DNA of 47,624 nt from positions 1-47,624 of the forward strand of contig QKCF01000117.1 of the NCBI GenBank assembly GCA_003246935.1. Reading direction: 5' to 3'. A model generated the notes under the pieces. That model did not search any database, was not told the DNA's origin, and saw only the letters and a list, made by a program, of their open reading frames with translations. The position numbers and the translations under genes were made by a program. The DNA is from Sunxiuqinia sp. Its GTDB lineage: Bacteria; Bacteroidota; Bacteroidia; Bacteroidales; Prolixibacteraceae. Below, piece after piece: positions 10,963 to 31,048 of this stretch; the first letter of the stretch is position 1, and each line of letters begins with the position of its first letter.

Positions 10963-10998
10963 AAAAAGGAAGAGCGGAAACAACTGCTCTTCCTTTTT
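10963..10998 (+). terminator. rho-independent terminator after prmA
   Basis: AAAAAGGAAGAGC / GCTCTTCCTTTTT perfect 13-bp stem, 10-nt loop. Confidence 0.85.
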
Positions 10999-11013: not shown

Positions 11014-11321
11014 CTTCCGCCTATGCATTTGGCTCCCGTAAGCGCAAATGGCTTCCGCCGATGCCAAATAAACAACTCACTATGCATTTCAGCTTCCGCA
11101 GCTACTAAATTCATTTCCGCCGGTGCATTCGAGGCTTCGGTTCATGCAAAGCAGACTTCCGGGTATGCATTATCACCTTCCGCCTGTTTATTTTCGCCTA
11201 CTCCCGGTGCAATACAAGCTTCCGCTAATGCAATATTCGCTGCGGTCGATGCAATATGACCTTCTGCGATTGCCCAATAAGTTTCCGCTTGTGCAATGAG
11301 GCTTCCGCCTCCGTCGAATGG
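11014..11321. repeat. degenerate tandem array, 15 units, period 21 bp (array 1), consensus CTTCCGCnnRTGCAWW+5n
   Basis: Unit starts at 11014, 11033, 11052, 11073, 11093, 11114, 11135, 11156, 11177, 11198, 11219, 11240, 11261, 11282, 11302; exact 21-bp steps from 11093 to 11282. Column 4 C in 15/15; columns 11-13 (TGC) each 13/15. Confidence 0.9.
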
Positions 11322-11427
11322 TTTTCTACCTGTTCTGAACCCGTTAAAATCGGTTCACCCCAGGCATCCTGCTATTCAATAGGAACCAGGCAGTCAATTT
11401 CGGACGTCACTGCTATTCAGGTACAGC

Positions 11428-11928
11428 TTAAAACTTGGTCCGCTCGAACTCATGAACTTCCAGATCGCGGATCTCGCGGCCATCAATTACAAAGCGAACG
11501 GCTGTGCAGCTTTTATGAAACCCCTTGTTGCCTGCTGCCCCCGGATTGATGTGCAGACAATTAAATTTCTTATCGTAAATCACCTTTAAAATATGCGAAT
11601 GGCCGGCAATAAATAGCTGCGGGGCTTTGGTTTGCATCTCCCTGCGAATACGGGCTTCGTAGCGGCCGGGATAACCGCCAATATGCGTCATCAGCACATC
11701 CACTTCCTCGGCAAAGAAGCGTAGCGTTTCGGGGAACATGCGGCGTAAAATGTGGCCATCGATATTACCGTAAACAGCCTTCAACGGCTTAAAAGCAGCC
11801 AGCTGATCGGCCAGCTCCACCGTACCAATATCCCCCGCATGCCACAACTCATCCACCTCTTCCAAAAACTTCAGCGCCTTCTGGCTAATCATCCCATGCG
11901 TATCGGATATCAATCCAATCTTCTTCAT
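11428..11928 (-). CDS. YfcE/MJ0936-type metallophosphoesterase
   Basis: IGLISDTHGM, HAGDIG, VYGNIDG, FIAGHSHI, CLHINPGAAG motifs. Confidence 0.9.
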   Translation of the reverse strand: MKKIGLISDTHGMISQKALKFLEEVDELWHAGDIGTVELADQLAAFKPLKAVYGNIDGHILRRMFPETLRFFAEEVDVLMTHIGGYPGRYEARIRREMQTKAPQLFIAGHSHILKVIYDKKFNCLHINPGAAGNKGFHKSCTAVRFVIDGREIRDLEVHEFERTKF

Positions 11929-11992
11929 TATTTATCTTTTCGTTGGTTTGAACGCCTAAAAATAGTTTATTTTAGTCCCAAAAACAGAACAA

Positions 11993-12487
11993 ATGAAACG
12001 AGTTGTAATTGTCAGGCATGCGAAAGCCGTTCCTTACGGGTACGACGATGACTTTAACCGGAGTTTAAAAGACAGCGGAAAGGAAGATGCCGCTCTTTTA
12101 AGTGAAAAGCTGAAGGAACTTCAGGTTTCTCCGGATCTGATTATTGCGAGTCCGGCCAAACGAGCCTACAAAACGGCAAAGATTTATGCCAAAACCTATG
12201 ACTATGCCAAGGAAAACATCCAGAAAGAGGAGGACCTTTACGACGGTTTGACGACGATGGATTTTATTGACCTGCTGCATAGTTTAGCAGCCGACATTGA
12301 AACCGTTTTTGTATTTGGCCACAACCCAACGGTTCATTATTTGGTGAATAACCTGGTGCGCTTTTTCAACAGCGACACCCCCACTTGCTCGACTGCCGTT
12401 ATTGAGTTTGAAGTTGATCAGTGGAAGAAAGTTTCGTCGCGCGAAGGTAATCTGGTCATGCACCTGAAACCTCGCAGTTACCGCTAA
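11993..12487 (+). CDS. SixA-like histidine phosphatase
   Basis: VVIVRHAKAVPYG RHxx motif, SPAKRAYKTAKIY, FGHNPTVH. Confidence 0.88.
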   Translation: MKRVVIVRHAKAVPYGYDDDFNRSLKDSGKEDAALLSEKLKELQVSPDLIIASPAKRAYKTAKIYAKTYDYAKENIQKEEDLYDGLTTMDFIDLLHSLAADIETVFVFGHNPTVHYLVNNLVRFFNSDTPTCSTAVIEFEVDQWKKVSSREGNLVMHLKPRSYR

Positions 12488-12497
12488 AACAACCGAC

Positions 12498-13178
12498 ATG
12501 CATTTATTTTACACCCCCGACCTCGAGGGATCGAGCTATACTTTAAACGAACATGCCGTTCGCGTGCTAAGGCTTCAGGAGGGCGACATCATCCAGTTGA
12601 TTGACGGGAAGGGTAACTTCTCGAATGCAAAGATTACCGAGGCGCACCCCAAACGGATCGTAGATACCCAAACCGAATATGGTAAGCGCAAAAGCTGGCT
12701 TCATATTGCAGTAGCGCCAACAAAAAACATCGATCGGTTGGAGTGGTTTTTGGAGAAAGCCACTGAAATCGGCATCGACGAGATTACGCCGATCCTGTGT
12801 GAGCACTCGGAACGCAAAGTGATTAAAGACGACCGCCTGGAAAAAGTGATCGTTTCCGCGATGAAACAATCGCTGAAAGCCTACCTGCCCAAATTAAACC
12901 CGTTGACTCCGCTGAGCGAATTGATGGATACCAACTTTGAAGGAAAGAAATTTGTAGCCCACTGCTACGAACAGGATAAGCGCCAATTGAAGAATGAAGT
13001 TGCCGGCAGCCTGGCAAGCCTCGTTATAATTGGTCCTGAAGGCGATTTTTCGGAGAGTGAAGTCGATGAGGCGATGGCTAAGGGCTTTATTCCGGTTAGT
13101 TTGGGTGAAAGCCGTTTACGAACCGAAACTGCTGCCCTTGTTGCCTGCCACACCTGTAATTTATTGAATGAAGATTAA
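12498..13178 (+). CDS. rsmE: 16S rRNA (uracil(1498)-N(3))-methyltransferase
   Basis: SERKVIKDDRLEKVIVSAMKQSLKAYLPKL, IGPEGDFSESEV, LGESRLRTETAAL. Confidence 0.93.
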   Translation: MHLFYTPDLEGSSYTLNEHAVRVLRLQEGDIIQLIDGKGNFSNAKITEAHPKRIVDTQTEYGKRKSWLHIAVAPTKNIDRLEWFLEKATEIGIDEITPILCEHSERKVIKDDRLEKVIVSAMKQSLKAYLPKLNPLTPLSELMDTNFEGKKFVAHCYEQDKRQLKNEVAGSLASLVIIGPEGDFSESEVDEAMAKGFIPVSLGESRLRTETAALVACHTCNLLNED

Positions 13179-13181
13179 ACC

Positions 13182-14417
13182 TTAGATTTGCGCTAAGGCT
13201 TGCTCAATGTCTGCAATCAAATCGGCTGCACCTTCAATACCAACCGATAGGCGCATCATGGTCGGACGAATGCCTGCCGCAATGCGTTCTTTTTCCGGAA
13301 ATTCCACGTAAATCGTCGAATATGGATGAATGATCAGCGATTTGTTATCGTTCAGGTTGGTTGCCCGGCGGATAATCTCCAGTTTATTCATAAAGCTAAA
13401 GCAAGCTTCCTGCGACTCCAGGTCGAAGGTCATCACCGTTCCCGGTATACCCGAAAACTGTTTCACGGCCAACTCGTAACCAGGCGTTCCTTTCAGCCCC
13501 GGATAGGTTACTTTCTTTACCTTCGGGTGTTTTTGCAAAAATTCGCCCAGCGCCAAACAATTGTTGTAGCAACGCTCCACGCGCAACTCCAGCATATCCA
13601 GCCCCATAATCTGGTAATGTGCCGTATGAGCCGTCATGGAAGCACCGGTGTTGCGATAATAGTTCTTCCGCAGTTTGGATATGAAAGCATCTTTGCCAAA
13701 CTTCTGTGCAAAGGCTGCCGTATTCGGGTTCTTCGACCAATCGTACAAGCCATTATCCAGAATAACACCACCAAACGAAGTAGCGCCGCCCGAAATAAAT
13801 TTGGTCGTCGACATCACCTCAACGTGTACACCCAACTTTTTCGAGTTTAACACAACCGGGGGCGTAATCGTGCTGTCAATCATCAACACAATACCATGCT
13901 TATTGGCAATTGTCACCAAGGCTTCGATATCGGCAATCTCCAGCTGCGGATTGGTAACTGTTTCGAAATAAATCAGGCGGGTATTTTCGTCAATCAAAGC
14001 CTCAACGGCCTCCGTGTTGGTCGTGTCCACGAATCGTGTTTCCAGCCCATAGTTGGGTAAACTTTCGTTGAATAAAGCGAATGTATGACCAAACAACTGG
14101 TTTGCTGCAATCATATTGTCGCCTGCTTTACACTGCGACAGGACGGTATTTGTAATCGCCGCCATTCCGGAAGCAACGGCTAAAGCCTGATGAGCGCCGG
14201 TCAGGGTCTTCATCTTTCGCTCGAAATATTCCAACGTTGGGTTACTTGTGCGGGAATACACGTGCGCAGGCAGTTCGCCGCTGAAGTTAGCTGCAATATC
14301 CTCCGACGATGCAAAATCGAAAGCAATGGACTCGTAAATCGGCATATCCAATGCACGGTGCGGATCATCTTTCGGAAAAGGAATATTCAGCGACCGGGTC
14401 GTAAAACTTTTTTCCAT
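13182..14417 (-). CDS. Cys/Met metabolism PLP-dependent enzyme (methionine gamma-lyase / O-acylhomoserine sulfhydrylase-like)
   Basis: YSRTSNPTLEYFERKM, VEVMSTTKFISGGATSFGG, RLSVGIEG; start set at MEKSFTTRS. Confidence 0.85.
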   Translation of the reverse strand: MEKSFTTRSLNIPFPKDDPHRALDMPIYESIAFDFASSEDIAANFSGELPAHVYSRTSNPTLEYFERKMKTLTGAHQALAVASGMAAITNTVLSQCKAGDNMIAANQLFGHTFALFNESLPNYGLETRFVDTTNTEAVEALIDENTRLIYFETVTNPQLEIADIEALVTIANKHGIVLMIDSTITPPVVLNSKKLGVHVEVMSTTKFISGGATSFGGVILDNGLYDWSKNPNTAAFAQKFGKDAFISKLRKNYYRNTGASMTAHTAHYQIMGLDMLELRVERCYNNCLALGEFLQKHPKVKKVTYPGLKGTPGYELAVKQFSGIPGTVMTFDLESQEACFSFMNKLEIIRRATNLNDNKSLIIHPYSTIYVEFPEKERIAAGIRPTMMRLSVGIEGAADLIADIEQALAQI

Positions 14418-14640
14418 TCTTGAATTCTGTTTTTTATAGGTAATCGAAAGCGGCAACCGAAATCGCCACCCGCAAAAATAACAGCGCTACGGCGAATTGG
14501 TTTCGAAATTATCTACGACTTATCCATAAAAACACAATTGAACAACTCGCAAAGTCCGAGATTCCAACTGACAGGATAGGTGAATTGTTAATACAACAGA
14601 CAAAATCACTTGCCGTTCACAGATTTCGCAGCAATCTTTT

Positions 14641-14648
14641 TATATTTG
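14641..14648 (+). promoter_or_regulatory. -7 promoter element TATATTTG upstream of the DUF4159 gene
   Basis: Perfect TAnnTTTG 19 bp before the proposed ATG at 14667; argues against the longer ORF start. Confidence 0.5.
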
Positions 14649-14666
14649 ATTTTCGACCCGAAAGCT

Positions 14667-15323
14667 ATGAAACGACTATTCTTCCTACTCATATTACTAA
14701 GCTCAATTCAGCTCGCCCGGGCACAAGCCCCCACCCTGAAAATAGGCCTACTCAAGTACAAAGGCGGCGGCGACTGGTACGGCGATCCAACAGCCCTTCC
14801 CAACCTGATGCGCTTTTGCAATGAGCACCTGCACACCAACTTTGCCGCCGATCCGGCAATTGTTGAACCGGGAAGCGCAGATCTGTTCAACTACCCCATG
14901 GTTCATTTAACCGGTCACGGTAATGTGATTTTCTCAAAGGAAGAATGCAGCAACCTGAAACTCTATTTTGAAGCAGGAGGTTTCCTGCATATCGACGATA
15001 ACTACGGCCTCGATAATTACATCCGTCGCGAAATGAAAAAGATTTTCCCGGATCAGGATTTCGTTGAGCTACCGGCCGACCATCCTATCTTTCATCAAAA
15101 GTTTGATTTCCCCCATGGGCTGCCCAAGATCCACGAACACGATGGCAAACGGGCGCAGGCTTTCGGGCTTTTCATTGATGGCCGTCTGGTCTGTCTGTAC
15201 ACCTATGAGTCAGATATCAGCGATGGCTGGGAAGATCCGGCAGTGCATGGTGACCCCGCTCCCATTAGGGAAAAGGCTTTAGAGATGGGAGCCAATATTG
15301 TATCGTATGTTTTCAGTAATTAA
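14667..15323 (+). CDS. DUF4159 domain secreted protein
   Basis: Signal peptide MKRLFFLLILLSSIQLARAQ, LLKYKGGGDWYGDPTALPNL, GGFLHIDDNYG. Confidence 0.85.
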   Translation: MKRLFFLLILLSSIQLARAQAPTLKIGLLKYKGGGDWYGDPTALPNLMRFCNEHLHTNFAADPAIVEPGSADLFNYPMVHLTGHGNVIFSKEECSNLKLYFEAGGFLHIDDNYGLDNYIRREMKKIFPDQDFVELPADHPIFHQKFDFPHGLPKIHEHDGKRAQAFGLFIDGRLVCLYTYESDISDGWEDPAVHGDPAPIREKALEMGANIVSYVFSN

Positions 15324-15335
15324 TCAGAAACAGCT

Positions 15336-15911
15336 ATGAAAATCTTAGGAATAAACGGCAGTCCCCGCCGTAACGGAAATACAAAAATATTGATTGAAAC
15401 TGCCTTTAAGCCGCTTGAAGAAGCTGGATTTGAAACAGAATTATTTCAACTTGGAGGCAAGCCGGTACATGGCTGTACAGCCTGCGGTAAATGCCGGGAA
15501 GTCAAAGATCAAAAGTGCCACATCAAAAATGATGTGATTAACGAATGTATTGCGAAAATGATCGAAGCTGATGCTATCATTCTGGGCTCCCCCGTTTACT
15601 TTGCCGATGTAACCACCGAGATGAAAGCGTTGATTGATGTTGCCGGCTATGTAACCCGCGGAAACGGTCACCTACTGAAACGTAAAGTTGGTGCTGGCGT
15701 GATTTCAGTACGACGAGGCGGCCAACTGCACACTTTCGAGTCCATCAACAACTTCTTCCTCATTAACCAGATGATTGTTCCCGGATCGTCCTACTGGAAC
15801 TTTGCCTACGGAAAGAATCCCGGAGACGTAATAAACGACGAAGAAGGCATGCAGACAATCCAAACACTCGGTGAAAATATGGCCTGGCTACTGCAGAAGC
15901 TAGCCGACTAA
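15336..15911 (+). CDS. flavodoxin-family NADPH-dependent FMN reductase
   Basis: [50 protein letters not shown]. Confidence 0.9.
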
Positions 15912-15932
15912 AACCTCCAAACCAAAGAAGCC

Positions 15933-16508
15933 ATGACCGACCAAAGCAAAATTGTTTTCCTTTTAAAAAACCTGGGACGGGCACTAATTTATGCCATCGT
16001 CATCGGTGTGGCTTATTACCTGTTCAAAGAATATATTGTAAGCGAGAATCAGGAAGTGTGGCTCAATAAATTTTACAGCAATGCTCCCCTGATTTACCTC
16101 ATCTATACCGGCTCTGAAGTCTTCTTCGGCTTATTTCCGCCCGAATTTTTTATGCTTTGGGCTTATCACAAAGGTGAAGTCATACAGTACGTGCTTAACC
16201 TGACCTTTTTTGCAGGCATATCCTACGGAGCCGGTTATCTCGCATTCTTTATAGGGCGCTTTCTTCGTAAAACCGTTATTTTCCGGTATATGAGCCGCAA
16301 GTTCTTCATGAAGTACTGGCCGATGTTTCGAAAGTATGGCTCTGTATTGATTATTGCAGCGGCACTGACCCCCCTTCCTTGGGCGCTGATCAGCATGTTG
16401 GTCGGCTCAACCGAATACCCGTTAAAGCGCTTCACCCTCTTCGCCCTTTTTCGGATTCTTCGTTTTGCTTTTTACGGCTATATTATTTTCCAAACCCACC
16501 AGTTTTAA
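15933..16508 (+). CDS. multi-TM protein, DedA/VTT-like
   Basis: FFGLFPPEFFMLWAYHKG and C-terminal PLPWALISMLVGS membrane-domain pattern. Confidence 0.5.
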   Translation: MTDQSKIVFLLKNLGRALIYAIVIGVAYYLFKEYIVSENQEVWLNKFYSNAPLIYLIYTGSEVFFGLFPPEFFMLWAYHKGEVIQYVLNLTFFAGISYGAGYLAFFIGRFLRKTVIFRYMSRKFFMKYWPMFRKYGSVLIIAAALTPLPWALISMLVGSTEYPLKRFTLFALFRILRFAFYGYIIFQTHQF

Positions 16509-16585
16509 ACCCTATCGGTTCTTCGTTGTTTATTCCTTCAGTATACAGAACTACTGATACAGACAAACACAAAGCGAAAACCTAA

Positions 16586-16888
16586 ATGCTGGATAAACTC
16601 AAAGTACACTGGCAAGTCGAAAGCAATTTTCAGCTGGCAATTATCTTTTTCGTCTTCTCAATTAGCGGCAGTTCAACACTTGTTGTACGTCAATTCATCT
16701 TCGAATTCATTCATGTTAACCCCGATTGGCCGTTCCTGCTGAAGGCCGCTATTTATTTGGTAACCATCGTGCCTATTTACCAAGCAAACCTGTTGGTTAT
16801 CGGTTCAATATTGGGCCAATTTCGGTTCTTTTGGCGTTTCGAAAAAAAGATACTAGGGCGTTTGGGAATTAAACTGAAGTCAAATTAA
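16586..16888 (+). CDS. small membrane protein (DUF6787-like)
   Basis: 100-aa ORF with two hydrophobic segments, short spacing to msrA. Confidence 0.5.
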   Translation: MLDKLKVHWQVESNFQLAIIFFVFSISGSSTLVVRQFIFEFIHVNPDWPFLLKAAIYLVTIVPIYQANLLVIGSILGQFRFFWRFEKKILGRLGIKLKSN

Positions 16889-16889
16889 A

Positions 16890-17501
16890 ATGATGAAACA
16901 ATTAACAATCCTGATTTTACTAACTCTATTTTCATTTCAAGCCATGTCGAATTCAAAAAAAACAGAGATCGCCACATTAGCCGGAGGCTGCTTTTGGTGT
17001 ACTGAAGCAATATTCAAAGAACTGAAAGGCGTAATATCAGTCACATCGGGTTATTCCGGTGGCGATATTGTCAATCCATCTTATCGGGAAGTTTGCACCG
17101 GGCGAACCGGACACGCCGAAGCAGTGGAAATTGAATTTGATCCGTCGGCAACCAGCTTCTCAGAGATACTGGAAGTTTTCTTCGCGACACACAACCCAAC
17201 AACACTAAATAAGCAAGGTGCCGACATTGGCACACAATACCGATCGGCGATATTTTATCACAGCGAGCAGCAAAAACAAATTGCCGAAGCCGTAATCAAG
17301 CAGCTAAACGATGAAAATATTTTTGGACCTCCAATTGTAACCGAAGTAAGCCCGTGGAAAAACTTTTTTAAAGCCGAGGACTATCATCAAGATTATCTGG
17401 CTAACAATCCGGGCCAAGGTTATTGCCAGTTTGTGATTATTCCGAAGCTTGAGAAATTCCGCAAGATCTTCAAAGACCGGTTGAAAAGCTCGGTTAAATA
17501 A
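16890..17501 (+). CDS. msrA: peptide-methionine (S)-S-oxide reductase
   Basis: LAGGCFWCTEAIFKELKGVISVTSGYSGG, YRSAIFYHSEQQK. Confidence 0.95.
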   Translation: MMKQLTILILLTLFSFQAMSNSKKTEIATLAGGCFWCTEAIFKELKGVISVTSGYSGGDIVNPSYREVCTGRTGHAEAVEIEFDPSATSFSEILEVFFATHNPTTLNKQGADIGTQYRSAIFYHSEQQKQIAEAVIKQLNDENIFGPPIVTEVSPWKNFFKAEDYHQDYLANNPGQGYCQFVIIPKLEKFRKIFKDRLKSSVK

Positions 17502-17531
17502 AGGAAGATTTATGCATCAAAACCTGCGACT

Positions 17532-17930
17532 ATGAAAAAGATATTATTGGCAATTATAATTGGCATGATCGGTTCCTCGGCGATGGCTCAGCGCGAATTT
17601 TCGATGACCGAAGGTGATACAACTTACGTGATGAAGCGGTACGTATTTATGCATTTACTTTCCGGAAGTGAGCGCAGTCAGGACTCAGCAGAAGCGGCAC
17701 AACTTCAGGCAAAGCATTTAGCACACCTGAACAGACTGGCTGAAACAGGCAAACTGGTTGTTGCCGGCCCGTTTGAGGGAGGTAATGAATATCGCGGCCT
17801 TCTGATCTTCGACGTTGAAACCGTTGACGAAGCGTTAAAACTTGAGGGCGAAGATCCGGCAGTGAAGGCCAACCGGCTAAAGATGCAGGCTTTTTACTGG
17901 TGGGGAGCAAAAGGCACAAAGCTCCCTTAG
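17532..17930 (+). CDS. YciI-like family protein with signal peptide
   Basis: Signal peptide, LAHLNRLAETGKLVVAGPFEGGNEYRGLLIFDVETVDEAL. Confidence 0.8.
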   Translation: MKKILLAIIIGMIGSSAMAQREFSMTEGDTTYVMKRYVFMHLLSGSERSQDSAEAAQLQAKHLAHLNRLAETGKLVVAGPFEGGNEYRGLLIFDVETVDEALKLEGEDPAVKANRLKMQAFYWWGAKGTKLP

Positions 17931-17937
17931 CCTCTTC

Positions 17938-19158
17938 TTAGTTTTTCAAAACCGACTCAACTTCTGCTAAACTTCCGTCTGTTTCTGCAGGTTCAAGGTT
18001 CAGGATCCTGGCAAACAGCGGATACAAATCAACATTCGGGAAGCTTTCAGACACATAGCCCTCTTTAAGCGCCGGCCCTGAACCGTAAAAAATAGCATGA
18101 ACATCCGTATCCGACGGATCGTAACCATGCGTCCCGCCGTTTACGAAGTGTGTATTTTTCCAGAACAAGGCATAAGCACTGTCGGCCACACACACATAAT
18201 CCAGAATTCGGTTGCTTTCGGTATAATGAAAGGAATCGGGCATGGTCTCTTTCGAATAAACCTTCATGTGCGGAATACTCGACAAAACACTCCAAACCGT
18301 ATCGGTATACTGTTCAAACGGCTTCAGCATAACCAGCGGATTACCTCCACGGATACTTTCGACCCAATCTTCGTGCAGGTATTCTGCCAATGCAATGCTT
18401 TTATCTTTTGTAATCTGCCCCATTCCATGATCGCTCAAAAACACCAAATTGATTGAATCAGCATTGGGCAATTGATTTATCTTGTGGCAGAAAACACCCA
18501 CTAGGCTATCTAATCGTTCAACGGTTGTTTTCGTGTCCTTTGCAAACGGCCCTTCCAAGTGGCCGATATGATCAGGCTCATCAAAGTACCATAGAATCAG
18601 GTGTGGACGAATCCCGCTTGGTAATTGCAACCAGCTGAAAACGGAATCTATGCGGTTTTCATAGGTTACTGTTGCATCATATTTCTTCCAAATTGAAGGA
18701 TACACACCTTTGATGGGCGCTTCGGAACCGGGCCAGTAGTAACAGGCCGTTCTTAGCCCTTGATTTTCTGCAGTCACCCAAATCGGTTCTCCCAGATAGA
18801 AATCGGGATTTTGCACTGCTTTGCGGTCGCTCAGTTTGTAATCACCAATAGCCGGATCGGTGAAAGTATTTAATACAATACCATGATGCTCGGGGTAAAG
18901 TCCTGTTGCTATCGTATAATGGTTTGGAAAGGTCTTGCTCGGAAACGACGGAATCAGCGATTTTGCCTTGACGCCTACCCGTGCAATAGAATCCAGATTT
19001 GGAGTATTGTACATATTAGAATAATCCCAGCGAAAACCATCCATCGACAAAACAACTAGGTACGGAGCATTCTCTTTTGATTTTTCTTTTGTCGGGGTGT
19101 GGCAAGCAGTTAAAAGCCAAACTGCCAATAATCCAAGAACAGTAACTTTCATTTTCAC
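17938..19158 (-). CDS. ectonucleotide pyrophosphatase/phosphodiesterase (alkaline phosphatase superfamily) lipoprotein
   Basis: LLTACHT lipobox, VLSMDGFRWDY, PSFPSKTFPNHYTIATGLYPEHHGI, FLSDHGMG. Confidence 0.9.
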   Translation of the reverse strand: MKMKVTVLGLLAVWLLTACHTPTKEKSKENAPYLVVLSMDGFRWDYSNMYNTPNLDSIARVGVKAKSLIPSFPSKTFPNHYTIATGLYPEHHGIVLNTFTDPAIGDYKLSDRKAVQNPDFYLGEPIWVTAENQGLRTACYYWPGSEAPIKGVYPSIWKKYDATVTYENRIDSVFSWLQLPSGIRPHLILWYFDEPDHIGHLEGPFAKDTKTTVERLDSLVGVFCHKINQLPNADSINLVFLSDHGMGQITKDKSIALAEYLHEDWVESIRGGNPLVMLKPFEQYTDTVWSVLSSIPHMKVYSKETMPDSFHYTESNRILDYVCVADSAYALFWKNTHFVNGGTHGYDPSDTDVHAIFYGSGPALKEGYVSESFPNVDLYPLFARILNLEPAETDGSLAEVESVLKN

Positions 19159-19255
19159 GACAATTTCAATTTTAGCTGAAGCAAGTATTCCTGTTTTTGC
19201 CGTGAAACTAACTAATAAATATTAGAATGATGTTAATTGCAGTTTAAACAAGTGT

Positions 19256-20146
19256 TCAGTTCCAAAGTTTATTTACAAGGACATCGCGAAATCCTTCGTA
19301 ATGTTCTACAAACCGCACATTAGCTGGTAGTTTAGGGGCATTTAGCGGAATCTGCATACCACTTACGACAATTGGCTTTCGCCCGAAGACCCGGGCTAGC
19401 TCTTCCAAATAGACCTCCAGATTCTCTTTTTCAATCGCATTCACAAACGAAGTAACAACCAAGCTCAGACGGTCGGCTATTTGCTTCAATAAAGAACTCA
19501 GATCTTCCAACGGAACATTCTGCCCTAAATAGATACTTTGGTAACCGGCACTCAACGCTAAATATTGACTATATAACAATCCAAGCTCATGCCATTCATT
19601 TTCGGGGAGCAAGAACAGAACCGTTTTACCGTTTTCTGGAATTTTAAGTCTGGCAGTTTCTACAATAAAGCGCTGGCGTACCAAATTTGAGATTAGATGC
19701 TCCTGTGCCGGAAAAAGGCTTCCGATCTGCCAGTATATACCGACCTTTCGGAATAACGGGAAGATCACTTCCGTCACCAGTTTTGCAAAACCCATTTTTT
19801 GCTGAAGCTCATCAAGCAATGCTTCAAATTTAATGATATCGAAATTGATAATATGAATGATCAACTGATCCAGATAGTCGTCTGCCGAACTAACTTGCTG
19901 ATTCAATTTCAGCACCTCTTCGTGAATACGCTGCTCGCCATAAGAAGCCACCTTCGAGATCTTATGTCCCCGCTTAACCAGCGCTGCCACATTCAAAAGC
20001 AGTTTCAGCTCTTCATCGCTGTAAATACGAATATTCGTACTAGTTCTTTCAGGAACCAAAAAACCGTAACGCTTTTCCCAAATACGGATCGTGTGGGCTT
20101 TTATACCCGACAGTGCTTCTAAATCTTTAATTGTGTAGTAATTCAT
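19256..20146 (-). CDS. MerR-family regulator with C-terminal cobalamin-binding region (CarH/LitR-like)
   Basis: YTIKDLEALSGIKAHTIRIWEKRYG (MerR HTH), WQIGSLFPAQEH (W-x9-EH), EWHELG then SAGYQSIYLGQNVP. Confidence 0.85.
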   Translation of the reverse strand: MNYYTIKDLEALSGIKAHTIRIWEKRYGFLVPERTSTNIRIYSDEELKLLLNVAALVKRGHKISKVASYGEQRIHEEVLKLNQQVSSADDYLDQLIIHIINFDIIKFEALLDELQQKMGFAKLVTEVIFPLFRKVGIYWQIGSLFPAQEHLISNLVRQRFIVETARLKIPENGKTVLFLLPENEWHELGLLYSQYLALSAGYQSIYLGQNVPLEDLSSLLKQIADRLSLVVTSFVNAIEKENLEVYLEELARVFGRKPIVVSGMQIPLNAPKLPANVRFVEHYEGFRDVLVNKLWN

Positions 20147-20191
20147 AAAGCAATCCCTTCTTCATCCGGTAACTTAAGCTCTTTTGTAAAA

Positions 20192-20219
20192 GTTTAGCCT
20201 TTCGGTTTAAAAACTAAAC
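20192..20219. promoter_or_regulatory. candidate MerR operator: GTTTA repeats plus inverted TAAAC
   Basis: GTTTA at 20192 and 20205, TAAAC at 20215-20219, about 45 bp upstream of the merR start in a divergent intergenic region. Confidence 0.3.
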
Positions 20220-20368
20220 AAATCAACCTAAATAACATGCGCACCAAAATATTGTTTTAGTAAAAGTTGATATTGCTACGACCAAAATATTGGTGCAATT
20301 AGCTACGAAGCTGTATATTCGGAATGAAATTCAGTCAAAACAATTGAAGAGGACCAAAATACAAACGC

Positions 20369-22420: not shown

Positions 22421-22572
22421 CAAACGGTCAATTCTTCTTTAGTATAAGATTTTTTAAGAGATCAACAATAAGATTACTCATTAGAGAATCCTATTATTGA
22501 ACAGGCTAACTTGCTTTGCTATCAGCCGGAAATTCACTAATTCTGTATAAAATCTCTTAAACAGTTTTTGCT

Positions 22573-23790
22573 ATGGATACAAAGAATCCAAAATACTTTA
22601 TGGATCGCGAAGATCAGTTTGGAGCACATAATTACCATCCGCTTCCGGTTGTACTGGAACGTGGTGAAGGTGTTTATGTTTGGGATGTAGAAGGAAAAAA
22701 GTACTATGACTTCCTCGCTGCGTATTCGGCCGTTAACCAAGGTCACTGCCACCCGAAGATTGTAAATGCCTTAATTGAGCAGTCGCGTAAATTAGCACTA
22801 ACCTCCAGAGCTTATTACAACAATGTGCTTGGCGAATGGGAAGAATATGCAACAAAGCTGTTTGGCTACGACAAAATGCTACCGATGAACTCAGGAGCCG
22901 AAGCCGACGAAACTGCACTGAAACTAACTCGCAAGTGGGCCTACAAAGTAAAAGGAATCCCTAAAAACGAAGCTAAAATTGTGGTATGTAATGGAAACTT
23001 CCATGGCCGTACCATCACCATCATTTCCATGTCATCCGATCCGGATGCTTACAACGACTACGGCCCTTATACGCCTGGATTCATCCATATACCTTATAAC
23101 GACATTCCCGCTTTGGAAAAAGCACTGAGCGATCCCAACGTTGCCGGCTTTTTGGTTGAACCAATACAGGCTGAGGCAGGTGTTTACCTACCGGAAGACG
23201 GTTACCTGAAAACAGCTGCTGACCTGTGCAAAAAGTACAACGTGCTGTTTATCGCGGATGAAGTGCAAACCGGATTAGCTCGAACCGGTAAGATGCTGGC
23301 CTGCGACCACGAAGGCGTACGTCCCGATATATTGGTGCTGGGCAAAGCCATGTCTGGCGGAATGTACCCGGTCTCTTGTGTTTTGGCCGACGATGAAATC
23401 ATGCTGACAATCAGACCGGGCGAACACGGTTCGACATACGGAGGAAATCCGATTGCTGCGAAAGTTGCGGTTACTGCCTTGGAAGTTATTCTCGAAGAAA
23501 GGTTGGCCGAAAATGCGACCCGAATGGGCGAATTATTCCGCAATGAAATGACATCTGTAAAATCAAATTTCATCGAGATTGTGAGGGGAAAAGGCTTACT
23601 GAACGCTATCGTGATCAAGCCAACAAACGGCAAAACAGCTTGGGATGTTTGCCTGGAGATGAAAGAAAACGGCATCCTGGCCAAACCTACACACGAACAC
23701 ATTATTCGCTTCACACCGCCATTAATTATCAACGAAGAACAAATGCGTGATGCTATCGCTCGTATCAAAAAGACTTTTGCCGAAATGTAA
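22573..23790 (+). CDS. rocD: ornithine--oxo-acid transaminase
   Basis: [76 protein letters not shown]. Confidence 0.93.
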
Positions 23791-23816
23791 GTTTATCGAA
23801 GCAAAATATAAGAACG

Positions 23817-23846
23817 AAAAAAAGGAGCTCATGAGCTCCTTTTTTT
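23817..23846. terminator. bidirectional terminator between convergent rocD and the CDF transporter
   Basis: 30-nt perfect palindrome AAAAAAAGGAGCTCATGAGCTCCTTTTTTT. Confidence 0.88.
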
Positions 23847-23870
23847 GTGTCTTTTGTAAAACTGTTTTTC

Positions 23871-24785
23871 TCAGCATCCCTCTCCCCCTTCTGTACAATT
23901 AAATTCGAACTGAAGAGTGACATGATTGATGAAAAACTCGTCGTGCAGGATCTCGTCCATTGCCTCGTCAATTTCACGCGTTTCCGACAGGTGTATATCT
24001 GAATCCAATTCCACATGGGCCTCAAAATGGATCGTATGGTCTGTGAGCCGCCATATGTGGATATGGTAAATCTGTTTAACTCCGTTAACCGTCTCCAGTT
24101 TTTGTTTCACCTCTGCCGGATCAATCGACGCAGGAGCAAACTGCATCAATATTTCTGTCGACTCTTTCAATAATTTGAAAGTATGCAGAAGTAGATAAAT
24201 ACTTATCAAAAGAGTGACGAGGGGGTCAATCCAGGTCCAGCCCCAGGCCCAAATAAACACAGCTCCAACAATTACTGCCAGGGATGTAAGTGCATCACCC
24301 AGCAGGTGCAAATAAGCTGCCTTAATATTTAGGTTTTGATGATGGTCGCCGTGCAGAAGAAATACAGAAAAGCCATTGGCAAGAAAACCTAACACCCCCA
24401 AGCCCAACATCCATTTAAAATCAACGACTTTAGGATCGGTAAAACGGTCAATAGCTTCAATCATCAGGTAAAATGAAATCGCGATCAGAACCAGAGCGTT
24501 AATAAAAGCAGCCAGAATTTCAGCGCGTTTATATCCGAAAGAGTGTTTTGCTGTTTTTTCCCGACGTCCTAATCGATCGGCAATGTAAGCCAAAAGAACA
24601 GCAACACCGTCACTTAAATTATGAATAGCATCTGATATCAATGCCAAACTACCACTAATAATACCGCCTATCACCTGAGCTACTGTAATCACAATATTCA
24701 GTAAAAAAGTTATTCCCAGGCTGTTATGCGAATGGTAATGGTGATGTCCGTGATCGTGTCCCATGATCAATAATATTTGAAGCAA
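23871..24785 (-). CDS. cation diffusion facilitator (CzcD/ZnT-like) transporter
   Basis: His-rich N-terminus GHDHGHHHYHSHN, LALISDAIHNLSDGVAVLLA, LLGDALTSLAVIVGA. Confidence 0.93.
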   Translation of the reverse strand: MLQILLIMGHDHGHHHYHSHNSLGITFLLNIVITVAQVIGGIISGSLALISDAIHNLSDGVAVLLAYIADRLGRREKTAKHSFGYKRAEILAAFINALVLIAISFYLMIEAIDRFTDPKVVDFKWMLGLGVLGFLANGFSVFLLHGDHHQNLNIKAAYLHLLGDALTSLAVIVGAVFIWAWGWTWIDPLVTLLISIYLLLHTFKLLKESTEILMQFAPASIDPAEVKQKLETVNGVKQIYHIHIWRLTDHTIHFEAHVELDSDIHLSETREIDEAMDEILHDEFFINHVTLQFEFNCTEGGEGC

Positions 24786-24950
24786 TAATTTTACCGAAAA
24801 CTAGTCAAAACCGCGCATTATCGGGTATGTCAATCCGCAAAACAGAAACTAATTCAGAATTTATTTAAACTCGATATAAATAAAACGGTCAGATTTCCCT
24901 ATTTACACGGCCCTTGTCAAAATAAAGTTTTACGACTTCGGCTGAGCAAC

Positions 24951-24958
24951 TATATTTG
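24951..24958 (+). promoter_or_regulatory. -7 promoter element TATATTTG
   Basis: Perfect TAnnTTTG 19 bp before the ATG at 24977. Confidence 0.5.
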
Positions 24959-24976
24959 TAATACAATAGTAATTCA

Positions 24977-25669
24977 ATGAAGATTAGCTTTATTTTAGTT
25001 GAGCCTGCAGTTCCTGAAAATGTAGGAGCTGCAGCCCGTGCAATGAAAACAATGGGTTTCTCTGATATGCGTCTGGTCAATCCGTGTGACCATCTAAGCG
25101 ATCCGGCCAGGTGGTTGGCTCATGCATCAAACGAGATTCTGGAAGGTGCAACGGTATTCAATAGCTTGGAAGAGGCTGTTCAAGATCTTGATTTCATCAT
25201 CGGAACATCGGCCAAACAGCGATTAGTGAAAGAAGATTATTACTCGACCCGTGATATCGTGCCTCTAATACAAACAAAAGGAACAGCAGTACAGCACATC
25301 GGTATTATATTTGGACGTGAAGACAGCGGACTTCGCAATGAGGAGCTCCGCCGTTGCGACATGGTAACCACAGTACCCTTACAAACAACCTATCCCAGTT
25401 TAAACCTCGCCCAGGCAATTATGCTTTATGCTTATGAACTGAGTCAGCTACACGAAACGGGGGCTCAAACGACAACCAGAGAGATAAACGAAAATGGTTT
25501 TCGGGCGCTCAAAGACAAAACAAGCCGATTGTTGCTGGAATTGGATTTCAAAGAAGAATCTGCTATTTACCCACGCATTCTGGAACGACTGAATCTGTTG
25601 GGCGAAAGCGATATTCACCTGTTGCATTCCATCTGCAATAAGTATTTTGAAAAAAAGAGCAACACCTGA
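24977..25669 (+). CDS. SpoU/TrmJ-type RNA 2'-O-methyltransferase
   Basis: FILVEPAVPENVGAAARAMKTMGF, IIFGREDSGLRNEEL, YPSLNLAQAIMLYAYEL. Confidence 0.92.
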   Translation: MKISFILVEPAVPENVGAAARAMKTMGFSDMRLVNPCDHLSDPARWLAHASNEILEGATVFNSLEEAVQDLDFIIGTSAKQRLVKEDYYSTRDIVPLIQTKGTAVQHIGIIFGREDSGLRNEELRRCDMVTTVPLQTTYPSLNLAQAIMLYAYELSQLHETGAQTTTREINENGFRALKDKTSRLLLELDFKEESAIYPRILERLNLLGESDIHLLHSICNKYFEKKSNT

Positions 25670-25722
25670 TGCAACATTCGTAAATCAGCTGTCGTCTTTC
25701 AAACGGATTAAGCTGTTAAACC

Positions 25723-26280
25723 TTGGAAACACAGTATAAAAACATTCATCAAAACATTATTGACCAATGCAGGTTGGGTAGCCGCGAAGCGCAATTCGAG
25801 CTCTATAAATTGTACTACAAATCGATGTACAACACAAGTTTCAGAATTGTAGGCAATACCACCGACGCGGAAGATGTAATGCAGGAATCGTTTTTAAGTG
25901 CTTTCAACAAGTTGGACAGCTATGAGGGAAAAGTTAGTTTTGGTGCCTGGCTAAAAAAGATTGTAGTCAACCGTTCATTGGATTATTTAAAAAAGCGACG
26001 GGTTATTTTCGAGGAGATCAACGAGCGGATTATAGAAGAAGAGCCCAATCCCCGAATGGAAATTCGAGAAATAGACATGAATAAGCTTAAAGCAGCAGTG
26101 ATGAAGTTACCTGAAGGCTATCGTGTCGTGTTGAGTCTATACCTGCTCGAAGGTTACGACCACGATGAGATTGCAGAGATTTTGAACATTACCAATGTGT
26201 CGTCGCGGACTCAATTGTTGCGAGCAAAACGCAAATTGCGTGATTTACTAGTTAAGGACGAGCTGTTTTCCTTCAATTAA
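25723..26280 (+). CDS. ECF-type RNA polymerase sigma factor
   Basis: Sigma2 region NTTDAEDVMQESFLSAFNKL, sigma4 region YDHDEIAEILNITNVSSRTQLLRAKRKLR. Confidence 0.92.
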   Translation: METQYKNIHQNIIDQCRLGSREAQFELYKLYYKSMYNTSFRIVGNTTDAEDVMQESFLSAFNKLDSYEGKVSFGAWLKKIVVNRSLDYLKKRRVIFEEINERIIEEEPNPRMEIREIDMNKLKAAVMKLPEGYRVVLSLYLLEGYDHDEIAEILNITNVSSRTQLLRAKRKLRDLLVKDELFSFN

Positions 26281-26873
26281 TGTGGAATGAAAATACAGAA
26301 GCCATGAAAGATTTTGACGACATACTGGAAAACGCAATTCGCGAGAACAAAGCATTTTTCGAAGACGATGCTCCCGAGGGTCATTTCGAGCGGTTTGCGC
26401 AGAGGTTGGAACAGCAAAAAGTGAAGCCATTTCGTAACCGGAGAAAAATTTATCTGCAAATTGCAGCTGCTGTTGCCTTTGTTCTGCTGCTGGGAAACCA
26501 GGTTCGTATGTACTTGCAACAATCAAAAGCACCCGAGGCAGTCTCCTTAAGCAGTGTTTCGCCGGAATATGCAGAAGCGGAGTTCTATTATACTTCAGCA
26601 ATTGATCAGGGAATGGAACATTGGAATAAGCTGACAGCCGACGGAATAATATCACCGGACGAACAGCAAATGATGCAGGAAGAAATCAACGATTTCAATT
26701 CAACCTATGCCCGACTGCAAAAAGATCTGGCGGCGAACCCGGAAGACGAGCGGGTGATTAACGCCATGTTGGAGCTGTATCAAACCAGGTTGGCCATTAT
26801 CAACCTGATTATTGACAAACTGGAAGAAGTAAAAAAACAAAAAGCGTATAACCATGATGAAAGTGAAATTTAA
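26280..26873 (+). CDS. putative anti-sigma factor / single-TM protein
   Basis: Overlaps the sigma stop (TAATG); one central TM (YLQIAAAVAFVLLLGN); true start may be ATG 26304. Confidence 0.65.
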   Translation: MWNENTEAMKDFDDILENAIRENKAFFEDDAPEGHFERFAQRLEQQKVKPFRNRRKIYLQIAAAVAFVLLLGNQVRMYLQQSKAPEAVSLSSVSPEYAEAEFYYTSAIDQGMEHWNKLTADGIISPDEQQMMQEEINDFNSTYARLQKDLAANPEDERVINAMLELYQTRLAIINLIIDKLEEVKKQKAYNHDESEI

Positions 26874-27891
26874 ACTATTACTGGCACTATTAGCATTCTT
26901 GCCGCTGGCTTTACAGGCAGCAGAATACAATAAAACAGTGCACGAGGGCTTCAGCAAGTCGCTGATTACTGCGTTAAATGTCAGCAACAAGTTTGGAGCT
27001 ATTGAAATCAATGATTTTGGAGGAGACTCGATAACAGTTGACGTTACCATAACCGTTGAAACCAATAGCGAAGGCCGTGCCGAACAATTGATGAGCCTGA
27101 TTGACATCAACATTTTTCGCAGCGGGAGTTTGTTGAATGCGAAAACAGTTATCGACAACGACTTTAAATCGAAAGAGAACTTCTCGATCGATTATAAAAT
27201 CAATATCCCGAAAGACCGGGCATTGACTATCGCCAATAAATTTGGAAATGTAGCTGTTCAGGCACTTGACGCGCCGGGCAGTTTCGATATTGCCTATGGT
27301 AATATAACCGCAGGCACCTTGAATTCCCCGGGCGATGGCGTTCAATTGGAACTGGCTTACGGAAAAGCCGACATTGAATCAGTGAACAAGATGTCTGGAG
27401 AGATTAAGTATTCCAAATTATTCTTTGGGCAAGCGGGCGATTTATCAGTCGAATCGGCTTATTCAGGCATCAACATTGACGAACTGCAGTCGTTGCACCT
27501 GGAATCAAAGTATGACGATGTGAAACTAGGCAACGTTAATAAGATTAATGCCGAATCGAAATACACCAACTACAAAATCGAAGAGCTGACCGGCGAAATT
27601 GACATCGAAACAGCTTACGGCTCGGTGAACGTAGGAAAAGTATCGCCAAACTTTAAGACGATCAACATTTCGAATACCTATGGTGGCGTATCTTTGGGCA
27701 TGGAAGGTCTCTCCTACCTGATTGATGCTGAATGCGACTATTGCGATGTGAAATACCCAGCCGACCAATTCCAGGGTAATCGCTCTAAAGACAACGCCAA
27801 ACTTACCGTGCAGGGTAACATTGGCTCGACTACAGGAATGCAAAAGGTAGTCATAAGAAGCCGTTACGGTGGCATTAAATTAAGTTATTAG
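26854..27891 (+). CDS. secreted DUF4097-like beta-helix protein
   Basis: Signal peptide plus repeated AYGNI / KYDDVKLGNV / AYGSVNVGKV segments. Confidence 0.7.
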   Translation: MMKVKFKLLLALLAFLPLALQAAEYNKTVHEGFSKSLITALNVSNKFGAIEINDFGGDSITVDVTITVETNSEGRAEQLMSLIDINIFRSGSLLNAKTVIDNDFKSKENFSIDYKINIPKDRALTIANKFGNVAVQALDAPGSFDIAYGNITAGTLNSPGDGVQLELAYGKADIESVNKMSGEIKYSKLFFGQAGDLSVESAYSGINIDELQSLHLESKYDDVKLGNVNKINAESKYTNYKIEELTGEIDIETAYGSVNVGKVSPNFKTINISNTYGGVSLGMEGLSYLIDAECDYCDVKYPADQFQGNRSKDNAKLTVQGNIGSTTGMQKVVIRSRYGGIKLSY

Positions 27892-27913
27892 CACTACATT
27901 TTTTAGAACATAT

Positions 27914-27943
27914 AACCGCAGGTAAGCCACCTGCGGTTTTTTT
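27914..27943 (+). terminator. rho-independent terminator of the sigma/anti-sigma operon
   Basis: AACCGCAGGT-AAGCC-ACCTGCGGTT followed by T run. Confidence 0.9.
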
Positions 27944-27986
27944 AGCATCAAACTCAAACTGCTTAACTCGCCTTACGAATTCGTTC

Positions 27987-28172
27987 ATGGCGAAAGGAAC
28001 AGATTTAAAAAATCTTTGCCATATTGCGGACTCTCCAACCGAAATGATCGGGAAGATCCGGTTCCTGTTAGAACAGGAATTTGGGGAAGAAAAAATTAGA
28101 AAGCGAAAACTGAATTTGGAAACATTGCACGCCAATGAACTTAATGCACAAAAAATTATTGAGCTTTTATAG
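27987..28172 (+). pseudogene. possible C-terminal remnant of a family-4-type glycosyltransferase
   Basis: CHIADSPTEMIGKIRFLLEQEFGEEKIRKRKLNLETLHANELNAQKIIELL resembles GT4 C-termini; no upstream portion because a terminator lies immediately before it. Confidence 0.4.
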
Positions 28173-29562
28173 CCTCTTCGTCATTTGCTTTTTACCTGTA
28201 GTAACCAAGGCCCAGCCTGTTCAAATAACATTTGATTTTCCGGCATTACGCGATAGTCAGCTTATTGTAGGAAGCTACTATTTCGGTGGGCTGTATGTTA
28301 AAGATACCGTTCAGCTCGACAAGCACGGGATGGCAGTACTGAAGAAAGACAGCACACTGGCTCAGGGGATTTACCAGATTTATTTTAACGCGGATGAGCA
28401 TTACGACTTTCTGCTCGCCGACGATCAGCAGTTTTCCATCAAGCTGGATGAAGGCTCGAACCGACCGACCATTGACGGTGCTACAGAGACGACTCAATTT
28501 CAGGATTACATCAACTATTTGGCGAAACAAAAAGCCAGGTTTGCTGAGTTATCTGCAAGGCAACACCAACTAAAGAACCAACCGGATTCGCTGGCTTTAA
28601 TAAAAAATGAAATTCATCAGCTGGATCAGGATGTGAAAAAGTACCAGTTTGAAAAAGGGATGCAAAACAGAGATAAACTCATTGGGAAAGTATTGCTGGT
28701 GAATCACCAGACGGAGCTTGACCCGACACAGATTCCCGCAAAAGATCAAGCCAACGACTCGTTAAAATGGGTGTATGAGTATAACTTCCGCAAACAGCAT
28801 TACTGGGATTATTTCGATTTGAGTGACCTCGCCTTGTGGCACACACCTTTCGTCAAGGAGCGTCTGGACGAATACTTCAACAAGGTACTTCTGCAAACAC
28901 CCGACAGTGTTCTGCCCGAAACAATAGCCCTGATCGAACAGAACCGGGACAACCCCGAACTATTTCAAAATATCACTTCATACCTGGTAAATAATACAAT
29001 CCAGTCGAAAATGATGGGTATGGAGAATGTGTTTGTTGCCTTGGCCAAGCGCTATTACCTGGGCGGACAAGCCTTTTGGGCCGACGAAAAAACCATGGAC
29101 AACATCCGCCGCGAGGTCGCACTACGCCAAAATAACCTGCTTGGCAATAAAACACCCGACTTGTTGCTTGAGGATGCTGACGGCGAATTTAGCAGCTTGT
29201 ACGAAAGCCCTACGCCCTACACCTTGCTGGCATTTTGGGAACCGGGTTGCAACCACTGCAAAAAAGAAATCCCCAAGCTTTACGACGAACTATTCTTAAA
29301 AGCAAGCCCTTCGCAGCTATCAGTTTATGCGGTTTATACCATGACCGACAAAAAAGAATGGACCGATTTTATAAATGAACACGGGTTGAGTGGATGGCAA
29401 AACCTTTGGGACCCCAAGCAGATTTCCGAAATGAAAGCCCTGTACGGCATTCGCACAACGCCCTCCTTCTTTTTACTCGACAAGGATAAAAAGATCATCG
29501 CCAAACAGCTGGACGTTGCCGGATTGCGCCATTTCCTGAAAGTGAAGGGAGTAATCGAATAA
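28144..29562 (+). CDS. TlpA/thioredoxin-like protein (DUF4369/DUF5106-type N-terminus)
   Basis: Signal peptide, FWEPGCNHCKKEIPKLYDE CxxC motif, YGIRTTPSFFLLDKDKKI. Confidence 0.85.
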   Translation: MHKKLLSFYSLFVICFLPVVTKAQPVQITFDFPALRDSQLIVGSYYFGGLYVKDTVQLDKHGMAVLKKDSTLAQGIYQIYFNADEHYDFLLADDQQFSIKLDEGSNRPTIDGATETTQFQDYINYLAKQKARFAELSARQHQLKNQPDSLALIKNEIHQLDQDVKKYQFEKGMQNRDKLIGKVLLVNHQTELDPTQIPAKDQANDSLKWVYEYNFRKQHYWDYFDLSDLALWHTPFVKERLDEYFNKVLLQTPDSVLPETIALIEQNRDNPELFQNITSYLVNNTIQSKMMGMENVFVALAKRYYLGGQAFWADEKTMDNIRREVALRQNNLLGNKTPDLLLEDADGEFSSLYESPTPYTLLAFWEPGCNHCKKEIPKLYDELFLKASPSQLSVYAVYTMTDKKEWTDFINEHGLSGWQNLWDPKQISEMKALYGIRTTPSFFLLDKDKKIIAKQLDVAGLRHFLKVKGVIE

Positions 29563-29656
29563 ACGCGTCGTAGCCTGGCTGAAGGTTCGCCACCGCCAAC
29601 ATCAGGAAAAGAACAAAGCCCCAATTGAAATGTTAAAGATTTGAGGAGAATGAAAA

Positions 29657-29929
29657 ATGGAAAGAGATAAATTTAAAAACTTACGATACCGTCTGATGGA
29701 GGTCGAAAGCTGGCCTCTGAAATACATGTTCAAGTTTATTACTCCGAACGAGGACGGCAAGGTTGAACAGGTAAAAGCCCTGCTTCCCGATAAAGGCGAA
29801 CTATCATTCAAGCACACTTCGAGCTTAAAATATGTAGCCATTACTTGTGTGGCAATCATGAATAATGCAGACGAAATTATCGACATTACCGAAAAAGCCG
29901 ACCGCATTGAGGGGGTGCTGATTCTGTAG
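29657..29929 (+). CDS. DUF493 (YbeD-like) protein
   Basis: WPLKYMFKFITPNE and SSLKYVAITCVAIMNNADEIIDITEKADRIEGVLIL. Confidence 0.8.
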   Translation: MERDKFKNLRYRLMEVESWPLKYMFKFITPNEDGKVEQVKALLPDKGELSFKHTSSLKYVAITCVAIMNNADEIIDITEKADRIEGVLIL

Positions 29930-30053
29930 TATATCCCTTCCTGGCCCATTTCAAACCGCTACTGCGTCATCCTGTTTAAAGACGAAGAGCCGGCACTCGG
30001 AAACCAATGCCCCGCCATGCTTTTATAACTTTTATTGCGACCCGTTTTTATTT

Positions 30054-30533
30054 TTAATTACAAATTCTCTTAAACGCGTAATGTATTCTCAAAACTTTGA
30101 TGATGTACATTAGAACGAATAGTATCCCCATCGCGAATAATAAAGTCTCAAACTCAGTTTCAATTCTTTTGCTGAGCAAATAAACCATCAATAAAAAACC
30201 TACGATCATTAATATAGCAAAGACTGGTATTGAATAAGTTAGACTGATTTTATTTTTTTCTATTGAACCAGTAATCGATAAGGGTAGATTTGTTCTTGTC
30301 GTCAAAATAATGCGTTCAGTTTCTAACTTGAAGCCTTGTCCATTACGTTCGCCAGAAAATGAAACTCTCATAGACCGCTTAAAGTCTTTCCAAAAACTTA
30401 ATGAAAACAAAGAAAAAGGGAAGATATATAGTTTAGCCCTATCCTCCACAGAAATCAATCTCTCCGCAAGCGCCCTTTCGAGTTCGGACTTTCTTTTCTT
30501 TGATATTAATTGCTCTTTATAAATAATAACCAT
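30054..30533 (-). CDS. hypothetical protein with two C-terminal TM segments
   Basis: 160-aa ORF from MVIIYKEQL; IPVFAILMIVGFLLMVYLL and LLFAMGILFVLMYII; AT-rich, no recognised family. Confidence 0.5.
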   Translation of the reverse strand: MVIIYKEQLISKKRKSELERALAERLISVEDRAKLYIFPFSLFSLSFWKDFKRSMRVSFSGERNGQGFKLETERIILTTRTNLPLSITGSIEKNKISLTYSIPVFAILMIVGFLLMVYLLSKRIETEFETLLFAMGILFVLMYIIKVLRIHYAFKRICN

Positions 30534-30796
30534 TTGCTTTTGGTTTAAATGGGCTGCAACTCGCAAACAACAGCGCCATGTATTGTAATATTGCCTGTCT
30601 CATTTGCAGAGATCTTGTTATACATCCCAAACGGAGGATTAACAACACCTAGTTAGATTTCGCCCGAATTTACAACCATTCATAATATTATTTTTCACTT
30701 CTAGTGAAATTGTAGACAATATAAATAAGGTGCTTTCGTAGCTTACCTAATAGTAAATCCAGTTTATAATACAGATCCAGTTATTCTGAGCCCTTT

Positions 30797-31048
30797 TTTC
30801 GATGTCCATCGTCGCTGTGGAATAGTCCACAACTTCTATTTCCAATTCCTCCATAAATATTTCCTATCTCATAAGCTATATTTCGCAGGAAGAATCTATA
30901 ATTTCCTGCTCCATAATCATGCTCACCTTAGCCAGAGAAATTATTTACAAGTCCACAGAGTTGGTGGGATAGTCCATCATCATCATTTCCTTGGTCAGCG
31001 TCTTTCTGGAATGTTCCATAAGAACAATTTCCGAAGAAAAGCAAAATA
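30797..31048. repeat. degenerate tandem array, 12 units, exact 21-bp period (array 2), consensus TTTCCnnnTCCATnA+n
   Basis: Units at 30797, 30818, 30839, 30860, 30881, 30902, 30923, 30944, 30965, 30986, 31007, 31028, all 21 bp apart; columns 9-12 TCCA exact in 6 of 12 with near matches elsewhere; three units carry TGGAA/TGGGA instead of TTTCC. Confidence 0.8.

Follow-up and report, generated by a model that had tools for sequence, protein, structure and literature searches.

Plasmid iterons and centromere repeats are phased protein sites that recur approximately every two helical turns and carry a cooperative complex. TIGR and CRISPR arrays consist of short conserved blocks alternating with variable ones. 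The REP/BIME elements and their RAYT transposases present short extragenic palindrome-like words, clustered, sometimes in alternating orientation and mostly flanked by convergent or same-direction genes; they form large families, in which a genome has only one consensus sequence or a few, with GTAG or CGTC tags at the foot of the unit, and have been proposed to be targets of the proteins gyrase, IHF and Pol I (PMC2817692, PMC3733652). In Porphyromonas gingivalis, the BrickBuilt minisatellite-MITE occupies many intergenic loci as tandem 23-nt units with conserved and non-conserved positions; it is one near-identical family of one species group, with a leader and a tail bearing inverted ends (PMC4596501). 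Heptamer STRR (TAACTGA repeats) are intergenic tandems of exact 7-bp units, and intergenic heptamer repeats have been reported from some Bacteroidetes too (PMC4679880). In the part consulted, a survey that looked for periodic repeats across 7006 prokaryotic genomes puts its emphasis on heptamers and mentions no 21-bp class (PMC6344855). Our literature search, which covered few subscription journals, returned no published description of such a class.

The window analysed here, 47,624 nucleotides from Sunxiuqinia sp., is one entire contig (C226) of a draft genome of 4.03 Mb in 492 contigs, 86% complete. It contains two arrays of 21-bp units, A1 and A2 (Table 1). REP/BIME, BrickBuilt, heptamer repeats and TIGR arrays are each partly alike, and each fails in at least one defining feature tested. 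As with REP/BIME, the words are short, extragenic and clustered, some alternate in orientation or may be palindrome-like, and 18 of the 19 arrays of the census described below are flanked by convergent or same-direction genes. However, the words are array-specific, there is no tag, and a fixed distance of two helical turns separates successive words. On both strands, GTAG and CGTC occur twice and once, respectively, in the 312 bp of A1, and zero times and twice in the 241 bp of A2, with no recurrence per unit. Nor are there many copies per genome: BLAST detects nothing related to A1, whether in its own genome or in the 60 related ones (61 genomes in total), and a family with GGAAT/ATTCC words has one to three BLAST copies in each genome possessing it. 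BrickBuilt is also an intergenic tandem of Bacteroidota with conserved and variable positions and many loci, but the arrays have many unrelated words, period 21 (the only one in A1 and A2) and strongly diverged linkers, and the one family aligned between genomes, that of array C85, stops where the array stops.

Heptamer repeats are likewise intergenic tandems, and 21 is three times seven. However, a heptamer origin is ruled out by arrays of period 41, not a multiple of seven, and by the z-scores of A1 and A2, far lower at period 14 (4.6 and 4.0) than at 21 (17 and 9.9). No 7-bp unit is present in A1 or A2; among periods 12-35 only 14, 28 and 35, with the common factor 7, are elevated besides 21. 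In contrast to iterons and centromeres, A1 and A2 have no replication or partition gene beside them among the ORFs that were examined, and the arrays lie scattered over chromosomes. Unlike TIGR and CRISPR arrays, they have linkers of approximately 7-12 nt, and many arrays with different words occur in one genome. TIGR-Tas was rejected, as PF01798 (Nop-domain Tas candidate) has no match in the 86% of the own genome that is available.

Arrays A1 and A2

Table 1. Features of the window. Coordinates are positions of the whole stretch.
Feature	Coordinates	Strand	Details
prmA-like methyltransferase gene, left of A1	10106..10936	+	Pfam PF06325
prmA hairpin, intrinsic-terminator-like	10963..10998	+	A1 starts directly after
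Array A1, approximately 14 units, consensus CTTCCGCnnnTGCAatatnng	11014..11325	+	period-21 z = 17
Metallophosphoesterase gene, right of A1, convergent with prmA	11428..11928	-	Pfam PF12850
Array A2, 11 units of 21 bp, consensus TTTCCnnnTCCAtaattataa	30800..31040	+	period-21 z = 9.9
Trypsin-like protease gene with T9SS sorting tail, A2 at its 3' end	31102..33282	-	PF13365 and PF18962, both scored slightly under the Pfam cut-off

The initial annotation described two period-21 arrays with a YTTCC anchor followed by second blocks, and both the arrays (z of 17 and 10 against shuffles) and their anatomy are confirmed. The unit pattern, as read from the units, is CTTCCGCnnnTGCAatat in A1 and TTTCCnnnTCCAt in A2, where TGGAA at times takes the place of TTTCC. 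Column information at period 21, scored over ten units, is 194 bits in A1 (59 +/- 9 in dinucleotide shuffles) and 148 bits in A2 (54 +/- 9), and none of 1000 shuffles equals either value. The next-highest spot of the window has 108 bits, and the maximum in 100 block-shuffled windows is at most 97. Tandem Repeats Finder overlooks both arrays, even with a score threshold of 30. The 21-bp register of A1 is regular only from 11093 to approximately 11302, the units of its left part being 17-24 bp long.

A1 lies between convergent genes and starts approximately 16 bp beyond the prmA terminator hairpin; a similar hairpin follows prmA in the sister species G001, which has no array there. A2 lies immediately beyond the stop codon of the minus-strand protease gene. 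It is the weaker array, and its column unevenness is not significant (P = 0.42). Dyad symmetry is absent from A1 (P = 0.85) and present in A2 (P = 0.0005). Folding of the RNA is no better than that of shuffles in both A1 (z = +0.8) and A2 (z = -1.4), and RNA hairpins were thus rejected for this pair. All six frames of A1 contain stop codons. One frame of A2 is free of stops, and no ORF with a start codon and at least 30 amino acids was found in it.

Period, words and spread

The 61 genomes of the order were searched for five copies of TTCC at a fixed spacing, with one mismatch permitted. In the own genome, a search for TTCC at spacing 21 yielded two more array loci (C85 and C145) and the low-scoring contig C251, whose repeats look like coding-type ones. 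At spacing 21, matches were found in 18 of 61 genomes and comprise many distinct arrays, whereas spacings 20, 22 and 24 matched in four, one and seven genomes; those at 24 are mostly 8-mer, 12-mer or coding-type repeats. Thus, for the same word, the period is specific. Short tandem repeats of heptamer type are known in cyanobacteria, and similar ATTCCAG/ACTCCAG repeats occur at many places on several contigs of the relative G004.

We scanned 84,980 species, each represented by one genome, for six TTCC at spacing 21; since word and period are fixed by this design, the scan bears on spread, not on specificity. Among the matches listed, those that are neither coding by a crude ORF test nor heptameric include at least 20 in Bacteroidota, at least 11 in Bacillota, at least four of Acidobacteriota type and a few others. 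The Bacillaceae and their relatives are represented by Lysinibacillus, Bacillus, Sporosarcina and Lentibacillus (L134, L142, L148, L152, L179); most of these arrays are classed as non-coding, L134 as coding by the same test. Many arrays among the matches listed stand at contig ends. Assemblies may break within arrays, and counts from draft genomes may therefore be too low.

An unguided census of periodic arrays covered 2.0 Mb of four relatives, three of which were picked for their TTCC-search matches, together with the three contigs of the own genome that carry arrays. It contains 19 non-coding arrays above threshold, and the best period is 21, 22, 41 or 42 in 17 of them, whereas coding repeats have periods of 15, 18, 24, 27, 45 and others. 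The two remaining arrays, both weak, have period 31, which was rejected as a true period, the pooled correlation at lag 31 being negative. At least one 41-bp array consists of alternating units of 20 and 21 bp, and in some arrays there are repeats of a higher order, 42 and 105 bp long. When lag correlations are pooled, those at 20-22, 41-43 and 62-63 are strongly positive, whereas those at 10-11, 31 and 52-53 are negative. Thus the unit is two helical turns and not one: the fundamental unit is one turn of word and one turn of linker. In 200 kb of G019, a genome with no TTCC matches, only weak matches were found, with best period 22. In 250 kb of E. coli K-12 there was no clear non-coding array; the strong matches lie inside annotated genes, and one 41-bp match has z = 5.5.

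The initial annotation suggested that A1 and A2 are members of one dispersed, unnamed family. The dispersal holds: an unnamed class with one architecture and array-specific words extends over the own genome and widely over the order, and its period of 21 is specific. The common family does not. When unit profiles are compared at every offset and on both strands, A1 and A2 match only as well as arrays without relationship do (z = 0.8, rank 73 of 190 pairs), whereas pairs that truly belong to one family have z = 7-9. TTCC does not mark a family either, as census words are unrelated between arrays (e.g. CGAGTA, TTTAAAnTGCC), and a reversed control word (CCTT order) matches arrays in several genomes. 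What A1 and A2 have in common is architecture. The A2 profile comes closest to those of four GGAAT/ATTCC arrays, a weak resemblance (z = 2.6-3.4), so that A2 may be a weak member of this dispersed family.

Copies, orientation and position of the arrays

Information is unevenly distributed between columns in most arrays (P < 0.03 in nine of 12). In A1, A2 and one further array, linkers of adjacent units are no more alike than those of distant ones, and thus there is no sign of recent tandem duplication in these three. Entire arrays have been copied. The C85 array can be aligned to an array of G003 over 230 bp and 11 units without gaps (73% identity), the flanks being unrelated, and more copies of this family occur in G002, G003 and G032. 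Between family copies at non-homologous loci of different species, 91% of positions are identical in the core phases and 61% in the linker phases (Fisher P = 6e-9), which shows that the words of this family are constrained. The core is TKC-N6-GMA. Its two sides vary independently of each other, which is typical of degenerate half-sites for a protein and not of paired RNA. Two TTCCTTAAC arrays of G025 have a common short leader and first unit and diverge afterwards.

In the G003 array at 2559, seven units carry CGAGTA in forward orientation, followed by several more with its complement, the phase being unbroken. The forward and inverted halves of the CGAGTA array of G003 (L066:2540-2872) join at CGAGTAcTACTCG. 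Dyad symmetry is significant in 16 of 60 arrays, with three expected. The RNAs of C85, C145 and the G003 array at 2559 fold far more stably than shuffles, with z from -6.1 to -7.5. In C145 (L020:880-1170), TTTCCCnnGGGAAA palindromes are spaced by 41-42 bp, and the whole array is one large inverted repeat (z = -7.5 as RNA). Rfam gave no match at the gathering score. Two GGAAT/ATTCC arrays of G003 (C1:382646-384770, L085, and C1:3125597-3127160, L310) each lie approximately 1 kb from a RAYT-type repeat cluster. Such a cluster is found at one place only in 0.8 Mb of this genome, and one cluster flanks a Y1 transposase gene.

The initial annotation had also raised a correlation with gene position, and one was found. 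Ten of the 19 census arrays lie between convergent genes, eight between genes of the same direction and one between divergent genes, whereas 55 of 474 background gaps of at least 150 bp are convergent (P = 1.5e-5). A similar preference is reported for REPs (PMC3733652). A1 and A2 are missing at the orthologous gene ends of three sister species.

Candidate functions and alternative origins

The leading possibility, to which we assign a probability of about 0.4, is that the arrays are copied rows of degenerate half-sites for a putative DNA-binding protein, spaced by two turns along one face of the helix at transcript ends, and act in a manner similar to REP/BIME. Each array would present one short degenerate recognition word per two helical turns, so that successive sites fall on the same side of the DNA, and the turn of linker between words would drift freely. 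As different arrays carry different words, there would be several proteins, or one of loose specificity. A cooperative complex could assemble on the phased sites at gene 3' ends, chiefly where two genes converge, and act there as a block or a buffer to transcription and supercoiling, as is thought for gyrase-binding REP/BIME clusters; the arrays would be copied to new loci as whole units. Phased protein sites on one face fit the period, the division into word and linker, the inversion that keeps phase and the excess of dyads. The specificity of the period, the uneven columns, the conserved core of the C85 family, the dissimilar adjacent linkers and the bias to convergent genes also count in favour. 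On the other hand, the diversity of words makes one protein unlikely, and a protein for each word would be costly. The absence of A1 and A2 from three sister species means that neither meets a conserved need of its neighbours. Moreover, convergent gaps may merely tolerate insertions, because promoters are absent there, the column unevenness of A2 is slight, and TTCC matches had guided the choice of three among the four genomes scanned without a set word.

The main rival, somewhat less probable, is a selfish minisatellite or MITE-like element, whose recombinase or transposase would read the phased word during copying and thereby keep word and phase with no gain to the host. Relocation of entire arrays between unrelated loci, their lineage-specific presence and the 23-nt minisatellite within a MITE of P. 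gingivalis (PMC4596501) are consistent with this, and the two G003 arrays near the rare RAYT-type cluster, one with a Y1 transposase gene, give a hint in the same direction. However, an informal look at the ends of the aligned C85 family showed no terminal repeats or target duplications, and A1 has no second copy. Y1 transposases (Y1_Tnp) are present in 49 of the 61 genomes, irrespective of whether these have TTCC arrays, and RAYT was therefore rejected as a general cause. Neutral minisatellites, produced through slippage or through enzymes cutting in helical steps and now decaying, would explain why the period tracks the helix regardless of the word, as well as the 42- and 105-bp higher-order repeats. 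This origin is improbable, as word and linker evolve at very different rates, adjacent linkers are unrelated in all three arrays tested, and phase is kept through changes of orientation.

Transcribed arrays might instead form repeated hairpins in 3' untranslated regions, as the folding of C85, C145 and the G003 array suggests. But the same folds arise from palindromic DNA words, half-sites vary independently and not as pairs, Rfam gives no match and neither A1 nor A2 folds better than shuffles, so that we consider an RNA element quite improbable. Selection for DNA bending, since any helix-phased repeat can curve DNA, would account for the freedom of the word, and indeed G009_302 and G032_340 are strongly curved in a wedge model (dinucleotide values of Bolshoy and others). 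However, the model gives A1, A2, C85 and G003_382 no more curvature than their shuffles, and several of them have less; the pooled half-period correlation is negative; curvature is not generally raised among the arrays, and this explanation is very improbable. Hardest of all to credit are decayed genes for seven-residue protein repeats. Although 21 bp make seven codons and A2 has its stop-free frame, that frame holds no started ORF of 30 residues, the 41-bp arrays with units of 20 and 21 bp cannot encode protein, and for A1 the stops in all frames refute the idea.

Extended beyond this window, the reading as phased protein sites leads to a proposal that we hold more tentatively: a general intergenic class of Bacteroidota, Bacillota and others, with a conserved two-turn spacing and a free word, which would be read by several cognate proteins, or by a single one of loose specificity, that form a phased nucleoprotein structure at transcript ends. 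BLAST and ordinary repeat finders overlook such arrays, because conservation is limited to approximately half of the unit and different arrays have different words. If the period is a selected trait, the arrays would be a bacterial analogue of satellite DNA in which spacing rather than sequence is conserved, and the factor reading them would be an unrecognised part of bacterial chromosome organisation or transcription termination.
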